NCBI GenBank assembly: GCA_021779195.1
Contig: JAJYBB010000002.1
Location: forward strand, 62,001-126,000
Direction of reading: 5' to 3'
DNA length: 64,000 nucleotides
Source: Bacteroidota bacterium
Lineage (GTDB): Bacteria > Bacteroidota > Bacteroidia > Bacteroidales > Paludibacteraceae
A program made the translations under genes and the position numbers. The notes beneath the pieces were generated by a model that worked only from the letters and a program-made list of their open reading frames with translations, did no database searches and had not been told where the DNA came from. Below, piece after piece: positions 2,704-40,614 of the stretch (within the stretch, counting starts at the first letter, position 1; each line of letters begins with the position of its first letter).

Positions 2704-3930
2704 ATGAAGAAAATTATTTTAGCCCTATTTTTAGTAGTTAGCTTTACATCTTCTTTTGCTCAGAAAGCAAATGTTTCGAAAGCAAAAAATAAAGCTTTAA
2801 TGGATAATCCTGATTTTGCAGGAGCGCGTGAGGCTATTTTGCCCGCCCTTCAAGATCCCACAACCAAAAATGATCCTTATACATGGTATGTTGCCGGATT
2901 AATTGGTAACAAAGAGAATGATGTCTTGTACCAAAAAGCACTGTTAAATCAAAAGTTTGATTCCGACGAAAAAGGTAAAGCCATCTTGGAATCGTATAAT
3001 TATTTTTTGAAAGCCGATAGTTTAGATCTTTTGCCCAATGCCAAAGGCAAAGTAAAACCTCGTTTTGAGAAAGATATAAAAGCGAAAATAAAAGATTATT
3101 ACACGACACAGCAAAATTTAATTGCTTATGGTGCTTATTTGTATGAAAATAAAAAATATGCAGATGCTGTAAATGCATTTGATGTTTATTTACAAATACC
3201 CAAATTAACATTGATGAATCATGAAATTCCAATGGATTCAACTTATAACAAAATTTCTTACTACACGGCAATTGCAGCTTCGTATGCCAATATGCACGAT
3301 AAAGCTATCTCTATTCTTGAAAATCTGAAAGATAAAAATTACGAAACACTGACTGTTTACGAATTACTATATCAGGAATATCAAACCAAAAAAGATACTG
3401 TTAATTTTGTTAAAACATTAAAAGATGGTTTTGATAAATATCCTAACGAACCTTGGTTCCTTCAAAATTTGATTAACTATTTTATTTATTCCGGAAAAAC
3501 AAAAGATGCTTTAACTTATCTCAATACGGCAATTGAGCGTGAACCAAAGAATCCTCAATATCATTACGTTAAAGGTAATTTAGATGAATCGTTTGGAAAT
3601 ACGGATGAAGCGATTAAAGACTTCAATTTAGCCATTCAATTGGATTCTACTTTAGCTGATGCTTATGCCGGTTTGGGTCGTTTGTATTATAATAAGGCTG
3701 TAAAAGTATTGGAAAATGCTAATAATCTGAAAGATAATAAGCAAGTTGTAGTTGAACAAACCAAAGCCCAAGGGTTTTTTCAACAATCAGTTCCCTTTTT
3801 TCAGAAAGCTGCACAGTTAAAACCCAAGGAAATTGAATATAAACGTACGCTTAAAACCTTGTATTACCGTTTAAAAATGGATAAAGAATTCGAGGCAATC
3901 AATAAAGAAATTCAGGCATTGCAACAATAG
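2704..3930 (+). CDS. Secreted tetratricopeptide repeat protein
   Basis: The 408-residue protein begins with a signal peptide (MKKIILALFLVVSF... cut near AFAQ-like SSFAQ at residue 20), so it should be periplasmic or surface exposed. The remainder is helical TPR-type sequence. The clearest repeats lie at about residues 255-320 (repeated A-x-Y-x3-G patterns such as DAYAGLGRLYYNKA). TPR arrays normally bind other proteins; the partner is not visible here. A TPR gene directly after gyrA is, from memory, common in Bacteroidales. A strong terminator follows the stop codon. No enzymatic motif is seen. Confidence 0.85.
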   Translation: MKKIILALFLVVSFTSSFAQKANVSKAKNKALMDNPDFAGAREAILPALQDPTTKNDPYTWYVAGLIGNKENDVLYQKALLNQKFDSDEKGKAILESYNYFLKADSLDLLPNAKGKVKPRFEKDIKAKIKDYYTTQQNLIAYGAYLYENKKYADAVNAFDVYLQIPKLTLMNHEIPMDSTYNKISYYTAIAASYANMHDKAISILENLKDKNYETLTVYELLYQEYQTKKDTVNFVKTLKDGFDKYPNEPWFLQNLINYFIYSGKTKDALTYLNTAIEREPKNPQYHYVKGNLDESFGNTDEAIKDFNLAIQLDSTLADAYAGLGRLYYNKAVKVLENANNLKDNKQVVVEQTKAQGFFQQSVPFFQKAAQLKPKEIEYKRTLKTLYYRLKMDKEFEAINKEIQALQQ

Positions 3931-5012: not shown

Positions 5013-6440
5013 CTACATAAGCGGACTAAACAAACGAGCAAAAGACTCTTTTAATTTTTGACTTCTTTTTCTGTTATTCCAATCATTTAAATTTAATTCC
5101 ACACAATGTTCTATATCTTCAAGATAAAGTTGTTTTAGTTTTTGGGCGGTAGGGGCGTCGTAAATAAATGCATTAGCCTCAAAATTTTGGTTAAAACTTC
5201 GTTCATCAAAGTTAGCCGATCCAACAATTGAAATAAAATCATCAATCACGATAGCTTTGCTATGCAGAAAACCTCTCTGATATAAGTAAACTTTTCCGCC
5301 TGCATCAAGAACATTGCCTAAATATGTTATTGTACTGGCAGTAGAAAGAGGAGAATCAGATTTAACAGGGATCATGAGTCTCACATCTATTCCACTTAAT
5401 ACAGCAATTTCAATGCAATTTGAAATTACATCGGTTGGCATAAAATAGGGTGTATGAATATATACGTATTTTGTTGCACTTATAATGGCAGAGGCAATAC
5501 CTTGCATGATGGATTCCCAATCTGTATCAGGTCCGCTGCTTACTAATTGGACCATATTTGGTCCGAAAATTTTTGGTTTCGGAAAGTATTCAGGTCCATC
5601 AATAAATTTTCGATCCACAAAGTACCAATCGATCATAAATAATAATTGTAATCCATGCACAGCAGCCCCTTCCATTCGAACAAATGTATCTCTCCAATTG
5701 CCCAATTTATTACCGTAAATATATCGGTCTGCAACGTTTAAGCCACCGATAAAACCGATTTCTCCATCGATCACCACTAATTTCCGGTGATTCCGATAGT
5801 TTATTTTACTACTGCGAGAAATTTTCCAGCGAAAAGGAAGAAATGCCCGCGCATAAATGCCGGCATCTCTCAAAGATTGAATATATTTTTTTGAAAGTTT
5901 AAAACTTCCCCAATAATCAAATATCATTCTTACCCGGATGCCTTCTTTTGTTTTTGAAATGAGTAACTCGCGAAGTTGGTTTGAAATCCGGTCATCGTCA
6001 AAAATAAAAAATTGGAGGTGAATATGATCCTTAGCCTTCTTGATTTCATCAAATAGCGATTCAAAACTTTCGTTTCCTGAAGAAAAAACATCGATTTTAT
6101 TGTTGCAGTATCCGGAAGCATCGCTGTTTCTATTTAGCAGTTTTATTAAATTGAGTTGATTAGATGTGAAAATACTCAAATCGATATTGTTATTTTCGAT
6201 TGGGATAAAGGGTCTATCTATCACTTTACGAATACTTTTCTTAGAAATTATTTTCTTTTTACGATAATCTTGACCAAAATAAAGGTACAAAATCATGCCC
6301 AATAAAGGCAGAAAGAGCAGAACCAACACCCAGGAAATGGATTTAACAGGATTCCGATTTTCTAACAATAGCACCGAAATGGTACTTAAAATGGTATATG
6401 TATAGAGAATAATAAGGAATAGAGCAAATAAATTGGTCAT
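5013..6440 (-). CDS. cls: Cardiolipin synthase (phospholipase D family)
   Basis: This membrane enzyme joins two phosphatidylglycerol molecules into cardiolipin. Two N-terminal transmembrane helices (the PLDc_N region ending in LYFGQDYRKKK) precede two HxKxxxxD catalytic motifs, NHRKLVVID in the middle and FLHSKAIVID near the C-terminus, each followed by the usual G-G/S-x-N segment (IGGLN, VGSANFD). I chose the ATG at 6440, giving about 475 residues, because a -7 element at 6492-6499 puts transcription start downstream of an alternative ATG at 6494. The gene stands alone and diverges from parA. Confidence 0.93.
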   Translation of the reverse strand: MTNLFALFLIILYTYTILSTISVLLLENRNPVKSISWVLVLLFLPLLGMILYLYFGQDYRKKKIISKKSIRKVIDRPFIPIENNNIDLSIFTSNQLNLIKLLNRNSDASGYCNNKIDVFSSGNESFESLFDEIKKAKDHIHLQFFIFDDDRISNQLRELLISKTKEGIRVRMIFDYWGSFKLSKKYIQSLRDAGIYARAFLPFRWKISRSSKINYRNHRKLVVIDGEIGFIGGLNVADRYIYGNKLGNWRDTFVRMEGAAVHGLQLLFMIDWYFVDRKFIDGPEYFPKPKIFGPNMVQLVSSGPDTDWESIMQGIASAIISATKYVYIHTPYFMPTDVISNCIEIAVLSGIDVRLMIPVKSDSPLSTASTITYLGNVLDAGGKVYLYQRGFLHSKAIVIDDFISIVGSANFDERSFNQNFEANAFIYDAPTAQKLKQLYLEDIEHCVELNLNDWNNRKRSQKLKESFARLFSPLM

Positions 6441-22868: not shown

Positions 22869-24758
22869 ATGGCAGAAAAAAAATTGAATTTATTGGCTGA
22901 TTTTCCATCCGTTAGCACACAGCAATGGATGGATAAAATCACCGCCGACCTCAAAGGAGCTGACTTCAACAAGAAGCTCGTTTGGAAAACCAACGAAGGC
23001 TTCAGCGTGTTGCCTTTCTATCGTGCAGAAGACATTGCAGGCTTGCAAACGAAAGATGCAGCTCCGGGTGTTTTTCCGTTTGTGCGTGGAATTAAAGCCG
23101 ACAACGAGTGGTTTGTCCGTCAGGACATCGTGGTAGAATCGGCTAAAGATGCCAATGCAAAAGCATTGGACATTTTGTTTAAAGGCGTTACCTCTTTGGG
23201 TTTCAAACTGAAAAAAGAAGAATTAAGTGCTGAAACCATCGCTACCTTGCTCGAAGGTATTGCTGCTGATTGTGTGGAACTTAACTTCGGTATTTGCGTG
23301 AGCGCAGCAGCTAAGCTGGCCACGATCCTGACCGATTATTTCAATTCAAAAGGGTATGATGTAAAAAAATTACAGGGTTCCATCAATTTCGATCCAATAA
23401 ACCGGATGCTTTTGGCGGGAAAAAAATTGACCAAAGATGAAATTGCCACTAAAGCTAAAGCCACTGTTTTAGCGGCTGCCGGTTTACCGTTCTACAAAGT
23501 TGTTGGTGTGAATGCAACTACCTTGAATAACTCAGGTGCTTTTATTGCCCAGGAATTGGGTTACGCATTGGCTTGGGGTAACGAATACCTGTCGTCATTG
23601 GTCGAAGCTGGTGTTGATACTTCATTGGCTGCTAAAAAAATCAAATTCAGCTTTGGAGTGGGTGGAAACTATTTTATGGAAATAGCCAAATTCCGTGCTG
23701 CCCGCATGTTATGGGCTAAAATAGTAGATGCTTATCAGCCGATATGTCGTGTGCCCGATTGTAAAAATACGGTCAATGGCATTTGCAAATGTGCTGCTAA
23801 AATGCGCATTCACGCCGAAACGTCTACGTTCAACACTACCATTTTTGACGCTAACGTAAATATGCTTCGTACGCAAACCGAAGCCATGAGCGCTACGCTC
23901 GGCGGGGTTAATTCGCTGACTGTTTCGCCTTACGATGTTGCGTACAAAACTTCCGACGAATTTTCGGAACGTATTGCCCGTAACCAACAATTATTATTGA
24001 AAGAAGAATGTCATTTCGATAAAGTAGCTGACCCTGCTGCCGGTTCTTATTATATCGAAACATTGACAAACGAAATTGCTGCTCAAGCCTGGAAATTATT
24101 CCTTGAAGTTGAGGATAACGGCGGTTTCTTTGCTGCTGTAGCTTCCGGTTCTGTTCAACAAGCCGTTAAAGCTACTGCTGCTGCTCGTTTGAAAGCTGTT
24201 TCAAGCCGACGCGAAGTATTGCTGGGAACCAACCAGTTTCCCAACTTTAGTGAGGTGGCTTTGGCAAAAGTGGAAAAAGAAGATCTCGCCGATTGTGGTT
24301 GCTCACACAGCGGAACAGAAAAACTGTTGCCTGTACGTGGGGCTGCCGAATTCGAAGCCTTGCGTTTTGCAACTGAAGGAGCTGCTAAACGTCCAAAAGC
24401 ATTTATGTTGACCATTGGGAGCTTAGCAATGCGTTTGGCTCGTGCTCAGTTCTCTTGTAACTTCTTTGCTTGTGCTGGTTATGACGTTGTTGATAACTTA
24501 GGTTTTTCAACCGTTGAAGAAGGTGTTGCTGCTGCTCAGGCCGCCGGAGCTGACATTATTGTTCTTTGCTCAAGCGACGATGAATACGCTGAATTAGCTC
24601 CTGCTGCATTCAAAGCTATCGACGGAAAACAACTTTTCGTAGTAGCCGGTGCTCCTGCTTGCGCTGATGATTTAAAAGCGATTGGTATCGAATACTTTGT
24701 AAACGTAAAAAACAACGTGCTTGAAATGCTTCAGAAATTCAATTCAAAATTATTATAA
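22869..24758 (+). CDS. mutA: Methylmalonyl-CoA mutase small (beta) subunit
   Basis: The 629-residue partner of the catalytic large subunit forms the heterodimer that interconverts succinyl-CoA and (R)-methylmalonyl-CoA in propionate metabolism. It has the TIM-barrel core ([49 protein letters not shown]) but its C-terminal cobalamin-type domain lacks the DxHxxG motif, as expected for the non-catalytic subunit. C293, C298, C306 and C308 form an unusual cysteine cluster in the barrel. Codons are richer in G+C than in neighbouring genes, consistent with high expression. A GxxExxY gene separates it from mutB. Confidence 0.94.
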   Translation: MAEKKLNLLADFPSVSTQQWMDKITADLKGADFNKKLVWKTNEGFSVLPFYRAEDIAGLQTKDAAPGVFPFVRGIKADNEWFVRQDIVVESAKDANAKALDILFKGVTSLGFKLKKEELSAETIATLLEGIAADCVELNFGICVSAAAKLATILTDYFNSKGYDVKKLQGSINFDPINRMLLAGKKLTKDEIATKAKATVLAAAGLPFYKVVGVNATTLNNSGAFIAQELGYALAWGNEYLSSLVEAGVDTSLAAKKIKFSFGVGGNYFMEIAKFRAARMLWAKIVDAYQPICRVPDCKNTVNGICKCAAKMRIHAETSTFNTTIFDANVNMLRTQTEAMSATLGGVNSLTVSPYDVAYKTSDEFSERIARNQQLLLKEECHFDKVADPAAGSYYIETLTNEIAAQAWKLFLEVEDNGGFFAAVASGSVQQAVKATAAARLKAVSSRREVLLGTNQFPNFSEVALAKVEKEDLADCGCSHSGTEKLLPVRGAAEFEALRFATEGAAKRPKAFMLTIGSLAMRLARAQFSCNFFACAGYDVVDNLGFSTVEEGVAAAQAAGADIIVLCSSDDEYAELAPAAFKAIDGKQLFVVAGAPACADDLKAIGIEYFVNVKNNVLEMLQKFNSKLL

Positions 24759-24782
24759 ACACCAAGACTCGGAGACACAAAG
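24759..24782 (+). repeat. Left flanking repeat of GxxExxY module 1
   Basis: ACACCAAGACTCGGAGACAC plus AAAG lies directly after the mutA stop. It is a degenerate copy, in the same orientation, of the 25178-25200 repeat, and an inverted copy of the two repeats that follow it. Confidence 0.8.
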
Positions 24783-24785
24783 CAA

Positions 24786-25175
24786 ATGAATAAAGCAGAA
24801 TTAGATAATATTGGAACTAAAATTGTGGATGCAGCATATTGTGTTCATAAAGAATTCGGTCCTGGTCTATTGGAGTCTGTTTATGAATTTTGCTTGATAG
24901 AGGAATTAAAGTCACGGAACTTGACTGTAAATAGTCAAGTAAGATTACCGCTGAATTATAAAGGTAAAATATTGAACAAAGAGTTTATTATCGATATTTT
25001 GGTTGAAAATGAAATTATCATTGAGCTAAAAGCAGTTGAAATAGTACTGCCAGTTCATGAAGTTCAACTTCTTACTTATATGAAACTTGCCGACAAAAAA
25101 CTTGGGTATTTGATTAATTTCAATGTTCCAATAATCAAAGAAGGCATAAAGCGTAAAATTAATGGCTACTTCTGA
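24786..25175 (+). CDS. GxxExxY protein, PD-(D/E)XK nuclease-like (copy 1)
   Basis: The 129-residue protein has the name-giving motif GLLESVY (G27, E30, Y33) and a nuclease-like core D70...E80-L-K82 (FIIDILVENEIIIELK), as in the PDDEXK_3 family. The biochemical role of the family is not established to my knowledge. It lies between mutA and mutB, in the same direction, wrapped by short repeats: one direct copy before it and one direct plus two inverted copies after it. This suggests a unit that moves or spreads together with its repeats rather than a propionate gene. The second copy in the window (40173-40550) is clearly homologous but divergent. Confidence 0.88.
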   Translation: MNKAELDNIGTKIVDAAYCVHKEFGPGLLESVYEFCLIEELKSRNLTVNSQVRLPLNYKGKILNKEFIIDILVENEIIIELKAVEIVLPVHEVQLLTYMKLADKKLGYLINFNVPIIKEGIKRKINGYF

Positions 25176-25177
25176 TT

Positions 25178-25282
25178 CAACACAAAGACACCAAGACACG
25201 AATTTAATTATTTTTGTGTCTCAGTGTCTCCGTGTTGAAAAAAAATATTTTTGTGTCTTAGTGCCTCCGTGTTGAAAAAAAT
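25178..25282. repeat. Right flanking repeats of GxxExxY module 1
   Basis: Three copies follow the gene: a direct copy (25178-25200) and two inverted 33-bp copies (25211-25243 and 25250-25282) that differ from each other at about two positions (GTGTCTCAGTGTCTCCGTGT and GTGTCTTAGTGCCTCCGTGT). The direct copy can pair with either inverted copy (18 of 22 positions), making a long hairpin in front of mutB. Confidence 0.85.
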
Positions 25283-25289
25283 AAAAAAT

Positions 25290-27413
25290 ATGAAACCAAA
25301 TTTCAAAAATATAGATATTAAAAACGTAGCTGCATCTACTGCTCAGCAGGCCGATAGCAGCTGGCTAACTGCGGAATTGATTCCGGTTAAGCCATTTTAT
25401 ACAAAAGATGATTTGGAAGGCATGGAGCATTTGAACTATGCTGCCGGTCTTCCTCCTTACTTACGCGGACCTTATTCGGTCATGTACGCTATGCAGCCCT
25501 GGACTATCCGTCAATACGCCGGATTCTCTACCGCTGAAGAATCAAACGCATTCTACCGTCGTAACCTTGCTGCTGGTCAAAAAGGTCTTTCGGTAGCTTT
25601 CGACTTGGCTACACACCGTGGCTACGATGCTGATCACGAACGTGTGGTTGGTGACGTAGGTAAAGCGGGTGTGTCTATCTGTTCGGTTGAAGATATGAAA
25701 GTGTTGTTCGATGGTATTCCATTGAATAAAATGTCGGTTTCTATGACTATGAACGGTGCAGTACTTCCTATCCTTGCATTTTATATCAATGCAGGTTTGG
25801 AACAAGGTGCTAAACTGGAAGAAATGGCCGGAACTATCCAAAACGATATTTTGAAAGAATTCATGGTGCGTAATACGTATATTTACCCACCTAAATTCTC
25901 AATGAAAATTATTGCTGATATTTTTGAGTTTACTTCTCAAAAAATGCCTAAGTTTAACTCTATCTCTATCTCAGGTTATCACATGCAGGAAGCTGGTGCA
26001 ACTGCTGATATCGAGTTAGCTTACACATTGGCCGATGGACTTGAGTACTTACGTGCTGGAGTAAATGCAGGAATGGATATCGACTCGTTCGCTCCACGTT
26101 TGTCATTCTTCTGGGCAATTGGTATGAATCACTTTATGGAAATTGCCAAAATGCGTGCTGCACGTATGTTGTGGGCAAAAATCGTAAAGCAATTCAACCC
26201 TAAAAATCCAAAATCACTGGCGTTGCGTACGCACTCGCAAACTTCAGGTTGGTCGTTGACCGAGCAAGATCCGTTCAACAACGTGGGACGTACGTGTATC
26301 GAAGCCATGGCTGCCGCATTGGGACACACGCAATCGCTTCACACCAATGCGTTGGACGAAGCTATCGCGTTGCCAACCGATTTCTCGGCTCGTATTGCCC
26401 GTAACACACAAATCTATATTCAACAAGAAACTGATATTTGCCGTGAGGTTGACCCATGGGCAGGTTCTTACTACGTCGAATCGTTGACTAACGAATTGGC
26501 TGAAAAAGCATGGGCGTTGATCGAAGAAGTAGAAAAATTAGGTGGTATGGCTGCGGCTATCGAAACCGGTGTTCCGAAAATGCGTATCGAAGAAGCTTCT
26601 GCACGTACACAAGCTCGTATCGACTCTGGAAGTCAGGTAATTGTAGGGGTAAACAGATATCGTTTGGAAAAGGAAGATCCCATCGATATTCTCGAAGTGG
26701 ACAACACAGCAGTTCGTATTCAACAAATCGAACGGTTGAAAGAACTGCGTGCCAACCGCGACGAAGCTGCTGTACAAGCTGCTTTGGCTGCCATTACCGA
26801 ATGTGCTAAAACCGGAAACGGTAACTTATTAGAATTAGCTGTAGAAGCAGCACGGGTTCGCGCTTCATTGGGCGAAATTTCCGACGCTTGCGAAGCAGTT
26901 GCAGGACGTTATAAAGCAACCATCAGAACAATTTCAGGCGTGTATTCATCAGAAACCAAAAACGATGCAAACTTTCAGAAAGCTTGCGAGTTGACAGAGA
27001 AATTTGCAAAAAAAGAAGGCCGTCGTCCTCGTATCATGATTGCTAAAATGGGTCAGGATGGTCACGACCGTGGTGCGAAAGTTGTTGCTACCGGTTATGC
27101 CGACTGCGGATTCGATGTGGACATGGGACCATTGTTCCAAACTCCGGCCGAAGCAGCCAAACAAGCTGTAGAAAATGATGTTCATGTAATGGGTGTGTCT
27201 TCATTGGCAGCCGGTCACAAAACGTTGATTCCGCAGGTAATGGAAGAGCTGAAAAAACTTGGTCGCGAAGATATTATCGTTATTGCTGGTGGAGTTATTC
27301 CGGCGCAAGATTACGATTATCTGTACAAAGCCGGTGTAGCAGCTATCTTTGGTCCGGGTAGTCCGGTTGCGAAAGCAGCTTGTACAATCATGGAAATTTT
27401 GTTGGAAGAATAA
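25290..27413 (+). CDS. mutB: Methylmalonyl-CoA mutase large (alpha) subunit
   Basis: The 707-residue catalytic subunit has a substrate-binding TIM barrel ([51 protein letters not shown]) followed by the adenosylcobalamin domain with DGHDRG, whose H592 is the lower cobalt ligand. It carries out the radical carbon-skeleton rearrangement with MutA. The start is ATG 25290, eight bases after the repeat cluster. A strong terminator follows. Like mutA it is comparatively G+C-rich. No MeaB chaperone gene is in the window. Confidence 0.97.
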
Positions 27414-38974: not shown

Positions 38975-40120
38975 ATGAAAGTAGCATTAATTTCAGGAAT
39001 TACAGGACAGGATGGAGCCTATTTGGCTGAGTTGTTATTAAAAAAAGGGTATATCGTTCATGGATTGAAACGTCGTTCCTCCATGTTTAATACCGACCGT
39101 ATCGATCATTTATATCAGGATCCGCATGTCGATAACCGGAATTTTGTATTGCATTATGCCGATATGACGGATTCGATGAACCTTACGCGTATTATTCAGG
39201 AAACACAACCCGACGAAATATATAATTTGGCTGCCATGAGCCATGTGAAAGTTAGTTTCGATACTCCGGAATATACTGCCAATGCCGATGGAATTGGAAC
39301 ATTGCGTTTACTCGAAGCCGTTCGTTTACTTGGCTTATCCAATAAAACCCGTATGTATCAGGCTTCCACTTCCGAATTATACGGATTGGTACAAGAAGTT
39401 CCACAAAAAGAAACAACCCCTTTTTATCCCCGATCGCCTTATGCAGTCGCTAAATTATATGCTTACTGGATTACGGTAAATTACCGCGAAGCCTATGGAA
39501 TGCATGCCAGCAACGGCATTCTTTTTAATCATGAATCTCCATTGCGGGGCGAAACATTTGTTACCCGCAAGATTACGCGTGCAGTCGCACGTATAGCCAT
39601 GGGTATGCAACAAAAAATGTTTTTGGGCAATCTTTCCGCTAAACGCGACTGGGGTCATGCCAAAGATTACGTACGTGCCATGTACCTGATTCTGCAACAG
39701 GATACTCCTGATGATTATGTAATTGCTACCGGTATTACAACCGAAGTGCGCGAATTTGTGCGTATGGCTTTTGCTGAAATCGGATTGAAAATTGATTTTA
39801 TAGGCGAAGGAATTGACGAAAAAGGCTATATCACAAGCATTCAGGATGCTCTGTTTACCGAACAGGTAGGTGCCTCGTTTCTTCCGGTTGTGAAAGCTAT
39901 TTCTGAACCTGTGGTGCAAGTCGACGCTAATTATTTCCGACCCACCGAAGTTGAATTGTTGATTGGAGATGCTACTAAATCACGCACCAAACTTAACTGG
40001 ATTCCTGAATACAACCTTAAAACATTGGTACAGGACATGATGCACTCCGATATTAAACTTATGAAGAAAGAAACCTATCTCAAAGAAGGCGGATTCAGGG
40101 TGATGAATTATTTTGAGTAG
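38975..40120 (+). CDS. gmd: GDP-mannose 4,6-dehydratase
   Basis: The 381-residue short-chain dehydrogenase makes GDP-4-keto-6-deoxy-D-mannose, precursor of GDP-L-fucose, GDP-D-rhamnose and others. It has the NADP motif [10 protein letters not shown] (8-17), the [15 protein letters not shown] substrate segment, the catalytic STSELYG and the [12 protein letters not shown] Tyr-Lys pair, and [17 protein letters not shown]. The reductase for the next step (fcl/GMER or rmd) is not in the window. It sits inside the polysaccharide locus. Confidence 0.96.
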
Positions 40121-40171
40121 GCACAGATAGGCATAAATAGGCACAGATTAAAACAGATTACACAGATTAGA
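40120..40171 (+). repeat. Left flanking repeats of GxxExxY module 2
   Basis: Several direct units of the form GCACAGATTA / ACACAGATTA fill the space between the gmd stop and the GxxExxY start. They match the direct unit after the gene and are inverted relative to the two last units. Confidence 0.85.
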
Positions 40172-40550: not shown

Positions 40551-40553
40551 AGA

Positions 40554-40614
40554 ACACAGATTTACACAGATAAAAAAATCTGTGTAAATCATTTTTAAAT
40601 CTGTGTAAATCATT
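40554..40614. repeat. Right flanking repeats of GxxExxY module 2
   Basis: One direct unit (GATTTACACAGAT, 40559-40571) and two inverted units (ATCTGTGTAAATC at 40578-40590 and again at 40599-40611). The first two form a perfect 13-bp hairpin with an A6 loop. Confidence 0.88.

Follow-up and report, generated by a model that had tools for sequence, protein, structure and literature searches.

We report that a GxxExxY gene and the short degenerate words that flank it form one unit in the gap between mutA and mutB, the genes for the two subunits of methylmalonyl-CoA mutase, of a Paludibacter-like member of the Bacteroidales (nearest named loci, Paludibacter sp. and Porphyromonadaceae MAGs). The unit has spread between species into this gap, and its words travel together with the protein from site to site. 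Moreover, the word recurs across phyla, gene-less hairpins built from it are confined to genomes that carry the gene, the array-bearing copies lie in sense orientation, and the catalytic-type residues of the protein are conserved. On balance we favour, with reservation, a minimal mobile element, selfish and homing-like, as the explanation of the module. It would consist of one PD-(D/E)XK nuclease gene and of ends in which a degenerate word (here NCRCNRAG) is arrayed facing inwards, and the nuclease would act on the words.

The module between mutA and mutB

The DNA analysed (the window, 64,000 nt) holds two GxxExxY elements (Table 1). At the first, mutA, the GxxExxY ORF and mutB are all intact and co-directional. 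Each repeat unit consists of three 8-nt words of the form N-CRCNRAG, e.g. ACACCAAG.ACTCGGAG.ACACAAAG, and inverted arrays 1 and 2 are 92% identical over 37 nt. The first-pass annotation had described a GxxExxY gene inserted in the direction of transcription between two undamaged mut genes, with one repeat unit before it and one direct and two almost identical inverted units after it. The TIGR04256 and PF13366 scores of the gene, the PF01642 matches of its neighbours and the ORFs bear this out, and the coordinates of the repeats proved exact. Within the window, 24-mer matches were obtained only at the two inverted places (0 in 100 shuffles); in the 3.1-Mb genome the 16-nt two-word pattern is present at six places, three of them at the mutA-mutB locus, and the reversed pattern at none.

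Table 1 Positions of the two GxxExxY elements and of the mut genes in the window
Feature	Position	Strand	Basis or remark
mutA, methylmalonyl-CoA mutase small subunit, left-flank host gene	22869..24758	+	PF01642, ORF; start codon inferred
5' word array ACACCAAG ACTCGGAG ACACAAAG	24759..24782	+	first base directly after mutA stop TAA
GxxExxY gene, 129 aa, PD-(D/E)XK nuclease fold (predicted)	24786..25175	+	TIGR04256, PF13366, alignment, structure model
3' direct word array ACACAAAG ACACCAAG ACACGAAT	25180..25203	+	
3' inverted word array 1	25213..25236	-	local hairpin partner of 25180-25203
3' inverted word array 2	25250..25273	-	outer end, facing 5' array
mutB, methylmalonyl-CoA mutase large subunit, right-flank host gene	25290..27413	+	PF01642 + PF02310 (B12-binding)
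Second element, 5' array of another word, ACACAGATT	40120..40169	+	
Second GxxExxY gene, 125 aa	40173..40550	+	34% identical to first
Second element, 3' direct and inverted ACACAGATT words	40553..40612	.	

GxxExxY proteins are a common family annotated as of "unknown function" and are carried by 152 of the 296 Bacteroidota genomes sampled. The protein encoded between mutA and mutB scored 140.4 bits against TIGR04256 (cut-off 35) and 137.7 against PF13366 (cut-off 22), the latter being its only Pfam match at E≤1e-3; the PF04754 (Rpn, transposase_31) domain was not matched. An alignment of 29 diverse members revealed twelve invariant residues (G25, P26, G27, E30, Y33, D70, E80, K82, Q94, L109, N111 and F112). 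These include G27, E30 and Y33 of the name-giving motif, here GLLESVY, and a conserved D...(D/E)xK catalytic-type pattern (D70, E80 and K82, plus E30 and Q94). We take this E / D / ExK / QxxxY set to be that of the Cas4-, RecB- and lambda-exonuclease-like nucleases. The AlphaFold model (pLDDT 94.9) has Cas4 SSO0001 as its best solved structural match (4ic1, Z 9.6), followed by other PD-(D/E)XK nucleases; the Foldseek E value for the fold match was only 1.4e-3, and a search by sequence returned no solved homologue. By catalytic pattern and predicted fold the protein belongs to the PD-(D/E)XK superfamily.

Two other identities for the gene were considered and rejected. A known defence gene was not indicated by PADLOC (best match only Cas4a2, E 0.01), and cargo of phages or plasmids was not indicated by 0 matches in 50,697 phages and six in 72,556 plasmids, all of these non-mobilizable.

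Occupants of the gap and age of the element

The mutA-mutB spacer was read in about 40 of the 48 congeneric genomes. It is empty in five (G015, G043, G007, G024 and G004; 11, 11, 11, 22 and 22 nt) and 58 nt long in G027. GxxExxY genes occupy the gap in eleven places, with at least two distant protein types and different words (ACACNAAG, ACGCNAAG). In ten the occupant is a gene for a 116-aa four-helix-bundle protein (TIGR02436, IVS/S23 family), 9 of these 10 cassettes bearing ends such as AAGAACCAAGAGTCAAGAACCAAGAGTCAAGAC ... GTCTTGATTCTTGGTTCTTGGTTCT, and in three it is an ORF6N gene. A few gaps have arrays but no gene (G002, G036), or remnants, and in some relatives mutA is absent beside mutB. 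When mapped on the mutB tree the gap states require at least 18 changes over 38 genomes (six for GxxExxY, with five as a lower bound, and eight for the four-helix type), and the clade closest to the window genome includes GxxExxY, ORF6N and four-helix states. The gap is a hot spot, or docking site.

These spacers, which are empty, GxxExxY-filled or taken by other cassettes, support the earlier suggestion that a module was inserted together with repeats of its own; they contradict the opposite case, i.e. the same gene in all relatives with unrelated or absent repeats. A look for empty sites had also been proposed. Short junctions were present, but clean empty sites with exact junctions were not found among the filled and empty congeneric junctions, nor was a target-site duplication, since the 3' end of mutA differs between the states.

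The ORF6N genes are a similar class of small accessory gene. Only 3% of 32 have inverted flanks; the notion of three cassette families of one design was dropped, and the ORF6N genes were therefore demoted to occupants that replaced other cassettes. Two of them at the mutA-mutB site (L015 and L023) retain a four-helix-type right end. Some ORF6N genes (L015, L023, L035 and L274) have a palindrome, GTTATCACAATTTGTGATAAC or a variant (TTGTCGCA..TGCGACAA), around nt 184 of the ORF; in two genes it is also found just upstream, and it might be a self-binding site. Separately, G040 has two mutA-GxxExxY-mutB loci on contigs C104 and C114 with a mutA nucleotide identity of 91%, which represent either a duplication or mixed strains.

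Divergence at four-fold sites of mutA, GxxExxY and mutB was 0.52, 0.26 and 0.37 between the window genome (G000) and G035, 0.48, 0.15 and 0.33 between G037 and G035, and 0.54, 0.30 and 0.49 between G047 and G014; the GxxExxY values come from only about 40 codons, and the pattern is repeated in independent pairs. Sequence identity climbs close to the left edge of the element, at a distance of no more than a few tens of bases. The GxxExxY copies are younger than the flanking mut genes and have therefore spread between species, and transfer between species into the same mutA-mutB site would be the simplest reading of the sequences. As expected of a homing element, the locus has both empty and filled alleles and a spread that is younger than the host gene.

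Word arrays, hairpins and their placement

Inverted similarity was scored between the upstream-130 and downstream-170 flanks of genes. Inverted flanks were detected for 62% of 157 GxxExxY copies vs 1.2% of 241 control long ORFs taken from the window and the genome-contig loci, about 38% of the GxxExxY copies scoring below the cut; near relatives are among the copies, and the percentages are therefore not independent counts. In an independent GxxExxY set 19 of 30 copies have inverted flanks, while for the four-helix genes the figures are 84% of 31 genus copies and 10 of 30 phylum-wide.

In the genus, the density of tandem.C.C.RAG pairs in GxxExxY flanks is 40 times that in the remainder of the loci concerned. 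The heptamer CRCNRAG was fixed from the genus and then tested on 30 unseen loci drawn across Bacteroidota. In this independent set it reached 20/kb on the coding strand upstream and 13.9/kb on the opposite strand downstream, with 0.9-1.2/kb elsewhere (enrichment 14-21 times), and 24 of the 30 loci have two or more copies upstream. Outside Bacteroidota, in Planctomycetota, Dadabacteria, Margulisbacteria, Desulfobacteraceae and Ignavibacteriales, the upstream density was 22/kb, and the word also accompanies plasmid-borne copies in Sphingomonas (fabD|GxxExxY|fabG) and Gemmatirosa (there downstream of the gene). Several GxxExxY clades use other words (AATCATA.., GAATTTACA.., ACACAGATT).

Word sharing was compared with protein identity in a Mantel test of 95 array-bearing GxxExxY copies, using only pairs with unrelated flanking genes. 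The fraction of shared 5-mers is 0.17 for pairs of low protein identity and rises to 0.55 for those above 70%, and the correlation (0.218) exceeds the permutation maximum (0.120). Word sharing thus tracks protein identity across unrelated sites, and the arrays therefore belong to the element rather than to the site. This bears on the alternative that the GxxExxY gene is passive cargo with an unrelated job (e.g. DNA repair or defence), the words being the target of another recombinase that also moves the four-helix-bundle and ORF6N genes. Three unrelated genes do take the same mutA-mutB gap, and hot spots are common to small mobile genes. However, the words are family-specific, CRCNRAG being about absent from four-helix flanks (0 of 30 loci of the genus have it upstream), the arrays of which mostly have a 7-nt period (42 of 50 arms); ORF6N genes lack inverted flanks; word similarity follows GxxExxY similarity; no candidate recombinase is linked; and the best PADLOC match is only the weak one to Cas4a2. 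We regard the cargo alternative as highly improbable.

Further copies illustrate the range of sites and words. The second element of the window lies between the end of a sugar-nucleotide-type gene and an ABC-transporter ATPase gene, and in G009 (L209) the position upstream of the homologous ATPase gene is also occupied, with another word. A third copy in the window's own genome (L012, C1:11887-12241) has stops or a frameshift, is without clear arrays and is decaying. Close GxxExxY paralogues of the AGAATTTAC word class (L228 and L234, 5.7 kb apart on G007:C24, and L205 in G017) share outer tips that are conserved, TGTC(T)GA...TCAGACA, and that can help to locate exact element ends. At another site (L073-L081 and L094), where the flanking proteins resemble an sdhA|sdhB pair, TIGR02436 genes of the four-helix-bundle type carry arrays of 7- or 8-nt words, with two different words at this one site in different species.

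As to placement, the upstream neighbour is co-directional for 87 of 90 array-bearing GxxExxY copies vs 104 of 152 control genes (P 2e-8), and the two neighbours are never both opposed. Mostly 1-17 nt separate the upstream stop from the first word and 12-23 nt the last word from the next ATG. Occupied gaps include leuC|leuD (Flavobacterium), sufC|sufD, galK|galM, porX|carbamoyltransferase and fabD|fabG. A promoter belonging to the element itself is not evident, and given its sense placement the gene is therefore probably expressed from the host operon transcript. In the predicted fold of this transcript the outer arms pair, and the fold is better than that of shuffled sequences (z -4.9); matches to known structured RNAs were nowhere near gathering scores.

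The sense orientation and the paired arms would also suit an intervening sequence acting at the RNA level, the mRNA counterpart of the IVS of 23S rRNA, whose complementary ends are processed by RNase III (PMC4990558). The arrays would pair in the polycistronic mRNA and a double-strand RNase (RNase III) would cut the stem; the cassette would be tolerated because it is removed or because the mutA and mutB messages are separated, with the protein a passenger or an RNA-acting factor. That IVS/S23-type four-helix-bundle genes with complementary ends of their own use the same gap fits as well. A stem alone, however, does not predict a bias in the position of mismatches, and here the arms match at 0.63-0.72 of the N positions of the word vs 0.90-0.99 of the fixed positions. 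The mismatches thus fall on degenerate positions, which suggests a recognised motif rather than a bare stem. Direct words are, moreover, present on each 3' side, and from genome to genome the gene-less hairpins accompany the nuclease gene, which holds as well for genomes positive for the four-helix gene (22 of 93 with GxxExxY vs 0 of 60 without). As the main explanation we consider the RNA-level one unlikely; it and the DNA-element model are not mutually exclusive.

The hairpins were searched for as two words, a loop of ≤30-40 nt and two inverted words. The survey covered one word class at fixed spacing, GxxExxY-negative status came from one profile, and many of the genomes are MAGs with genes called by simple ORF rules. 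In the genus, hairpins were detected in 17 of 48 genomes, every one GxxExxY-positive; when genomes with their sole hairpin at the GxxExxY gene were excluded the counts were 15 of 39 vs 0 of 9 (one-sided P 0.023). Among the 296 Bacteroidota genomes, hairpins are present in 44 of 152 positive and 0 of 144 negative genomes, and stratification by taxonomic family gave 0 of 26 in negatives vs 8.4 expected (P 6e-6). There are usually 1-5 hairpins per genome, mutually different even within one genome, and 24 of 29 sampled have no GxxExxY gene within 1.5 kb. The dependence of hairpins on the gene is correlational, as are the strongest statistics for the element model. No near-identical dispersed copies that would prove recent transposition were found among the hairpins, every one being individually different.

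Strict inward polarity of the hairpins was dropped, everted word pairs being present in 27 genomes (25 GxxExxY-positive and two negative). Several of the pairs resemble neighbours placed back to back, and that of the GxxExxY-negative G256 is a long perfect palindrome. G219, in which GxxExxY was not detected, has genuine-looking everted pairs (CTTCGTGTAATTTCTTTCACGAAG), and either recent gene loss or a divergent family member may be involved. Contig C25 of the window's own genome (L011) has gene-less hairpins in several gaps near a gene for a 2-oxoacid dehydrogenase E1 and on both sides of it (1930-1992, 3146-3190, 3340-3425 and 5927-5985). Only one loose case (L343 and L065) was seen of a gap with a solo hairpin in one locus and a filled element in the other, and there the word classes differ.

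Most hairpins of the genus sit tight between co-directional genes, and hairpins and elements alike are often found snugly between the genes for two subunits. Such positions would be expected of a domesticated, REP-like regulatory hairpin that protects or terminates segments of operon mRNA and is kept for the benefit of the host, the nuclease only spreading the hairpins. We think this very unlikely, considering that close species differ greatly in whether a given gap is occupied, which is unlike the behaviour of a needed regulator, and that gaps without hairpins are common.

The homing-like element is favoured because it explains why word and protein travel together, why hairpins depend on the gene, why alleles of both kinds, empty and filled, exist and why the active site is intact. 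According to this model the nuclease would recognise the words at the ends of its own element and in the gene-less hairpins, binding or cutting them as DNA, and would help both the gene and the hairpin to enter gaps between co-transcribed genes; recombination stimulated by breaks is the probable route. A family-specific DNA word together with gene-confined hairpins gives GxxExxY a concrete, testable job and substrate and, if the model is true, accounts for many short hairpins that are dispersed over the gaps of operons. The mutA-mutB case also shows that tiny elements dock repeatedly in gaps that separate the subunit genes of core enzymes. More tentatively, GxxExxY nucleases with CRCNRAG arrays may constitute a class of mobile elements with a single gene that is widespread and as yet undescribed. 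Its PD-(D/E)XK enzyme would recognise tandem words of degenerate sequence and would build or spread hairpins in operon gaps, with the four-helix-bundle (IVS/Avd-like) genes and their 7-nt words as a parallel class that uses the same docking sites. No description of GxxExxY-associated repeats was found in the openly accessible journal literature.

Comparison with known systems

Like a 23S rRNA IVS (PMC4990558), the module has one small ORF between complementary ends within a transcript, and the S23/four-helix-bundle family occupies the same mutA-mutB gap in relatives. It differs in lying between the mRNA genes mutA and mutB and not in 23S rRNA, in that its ORF is a PDDEXK_3 nuclease instead of an S23 four-helix bundle, and in having words that are not known from IVS. 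Like homing endonuclease genes it has only one gene, for a nuclease, leaves its neighbours intact, occurs as filled and as empty alleles and has spread between species at one site, but there is no intron or intein, many different gaps are used, and the flanking word arrays are only candidate recognition sites.

Among PD-(D/E)XK proteins, the Rpn nucleases (YhgA-like, transposase_31) are also small and spread horizontally, and a given paralog has inserted more than once at one and the same position (PMC5350276); RpnA is non-specific in vitro (PMC5350276). They belong to a different Pfam family, and word arrays are not reported for Rpn. The branch of Cas4, lambda exonuclease and Hjc shares the predicted fold and the D..ExK..QxxxY pattern, whereas the GxxExxY protein has 129 aa only, is without iron-sulfur cysteines and lies outside a CRISPR locus.

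Finally, in the REP/RAYT system (REP-associated tyrosine transposase) a gene lies between inverted hairpin repeats and solo repeats depend on the gene (PMC3686654). Here, too, a small nuclease-type gene is flanked by inverted hairpin repeats, gene-less hairpins are dispersed between genes with an abundance that depends (correlationally) on the cognate gene, and the repeat class tracks the enzyme. Unlike RAYT, the enzyme is of PD-(D/E)XK and not HUH (Y1) tyrosine type, matching PDDEXK_3 / TIGR04256 only. The GxxExxY hairpins are composed of degenerate 7-8-nt words, few per genome, instead of tens to hundreds of near-identical copies of one sequence, and a GTAG/CGTC tag was not seen in them. The GxxExxY system would thus be functionally like REP/RAYT by analogy, and not a member of it, having an unrelated enzyme and degenerate low-copy words. 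The restriction of gene-less hairpins to nuclease-bearing genomes suggests a new counterpart of REP/RAYT, which, if true, would be a second, enzymatically unrelated system of this kind.
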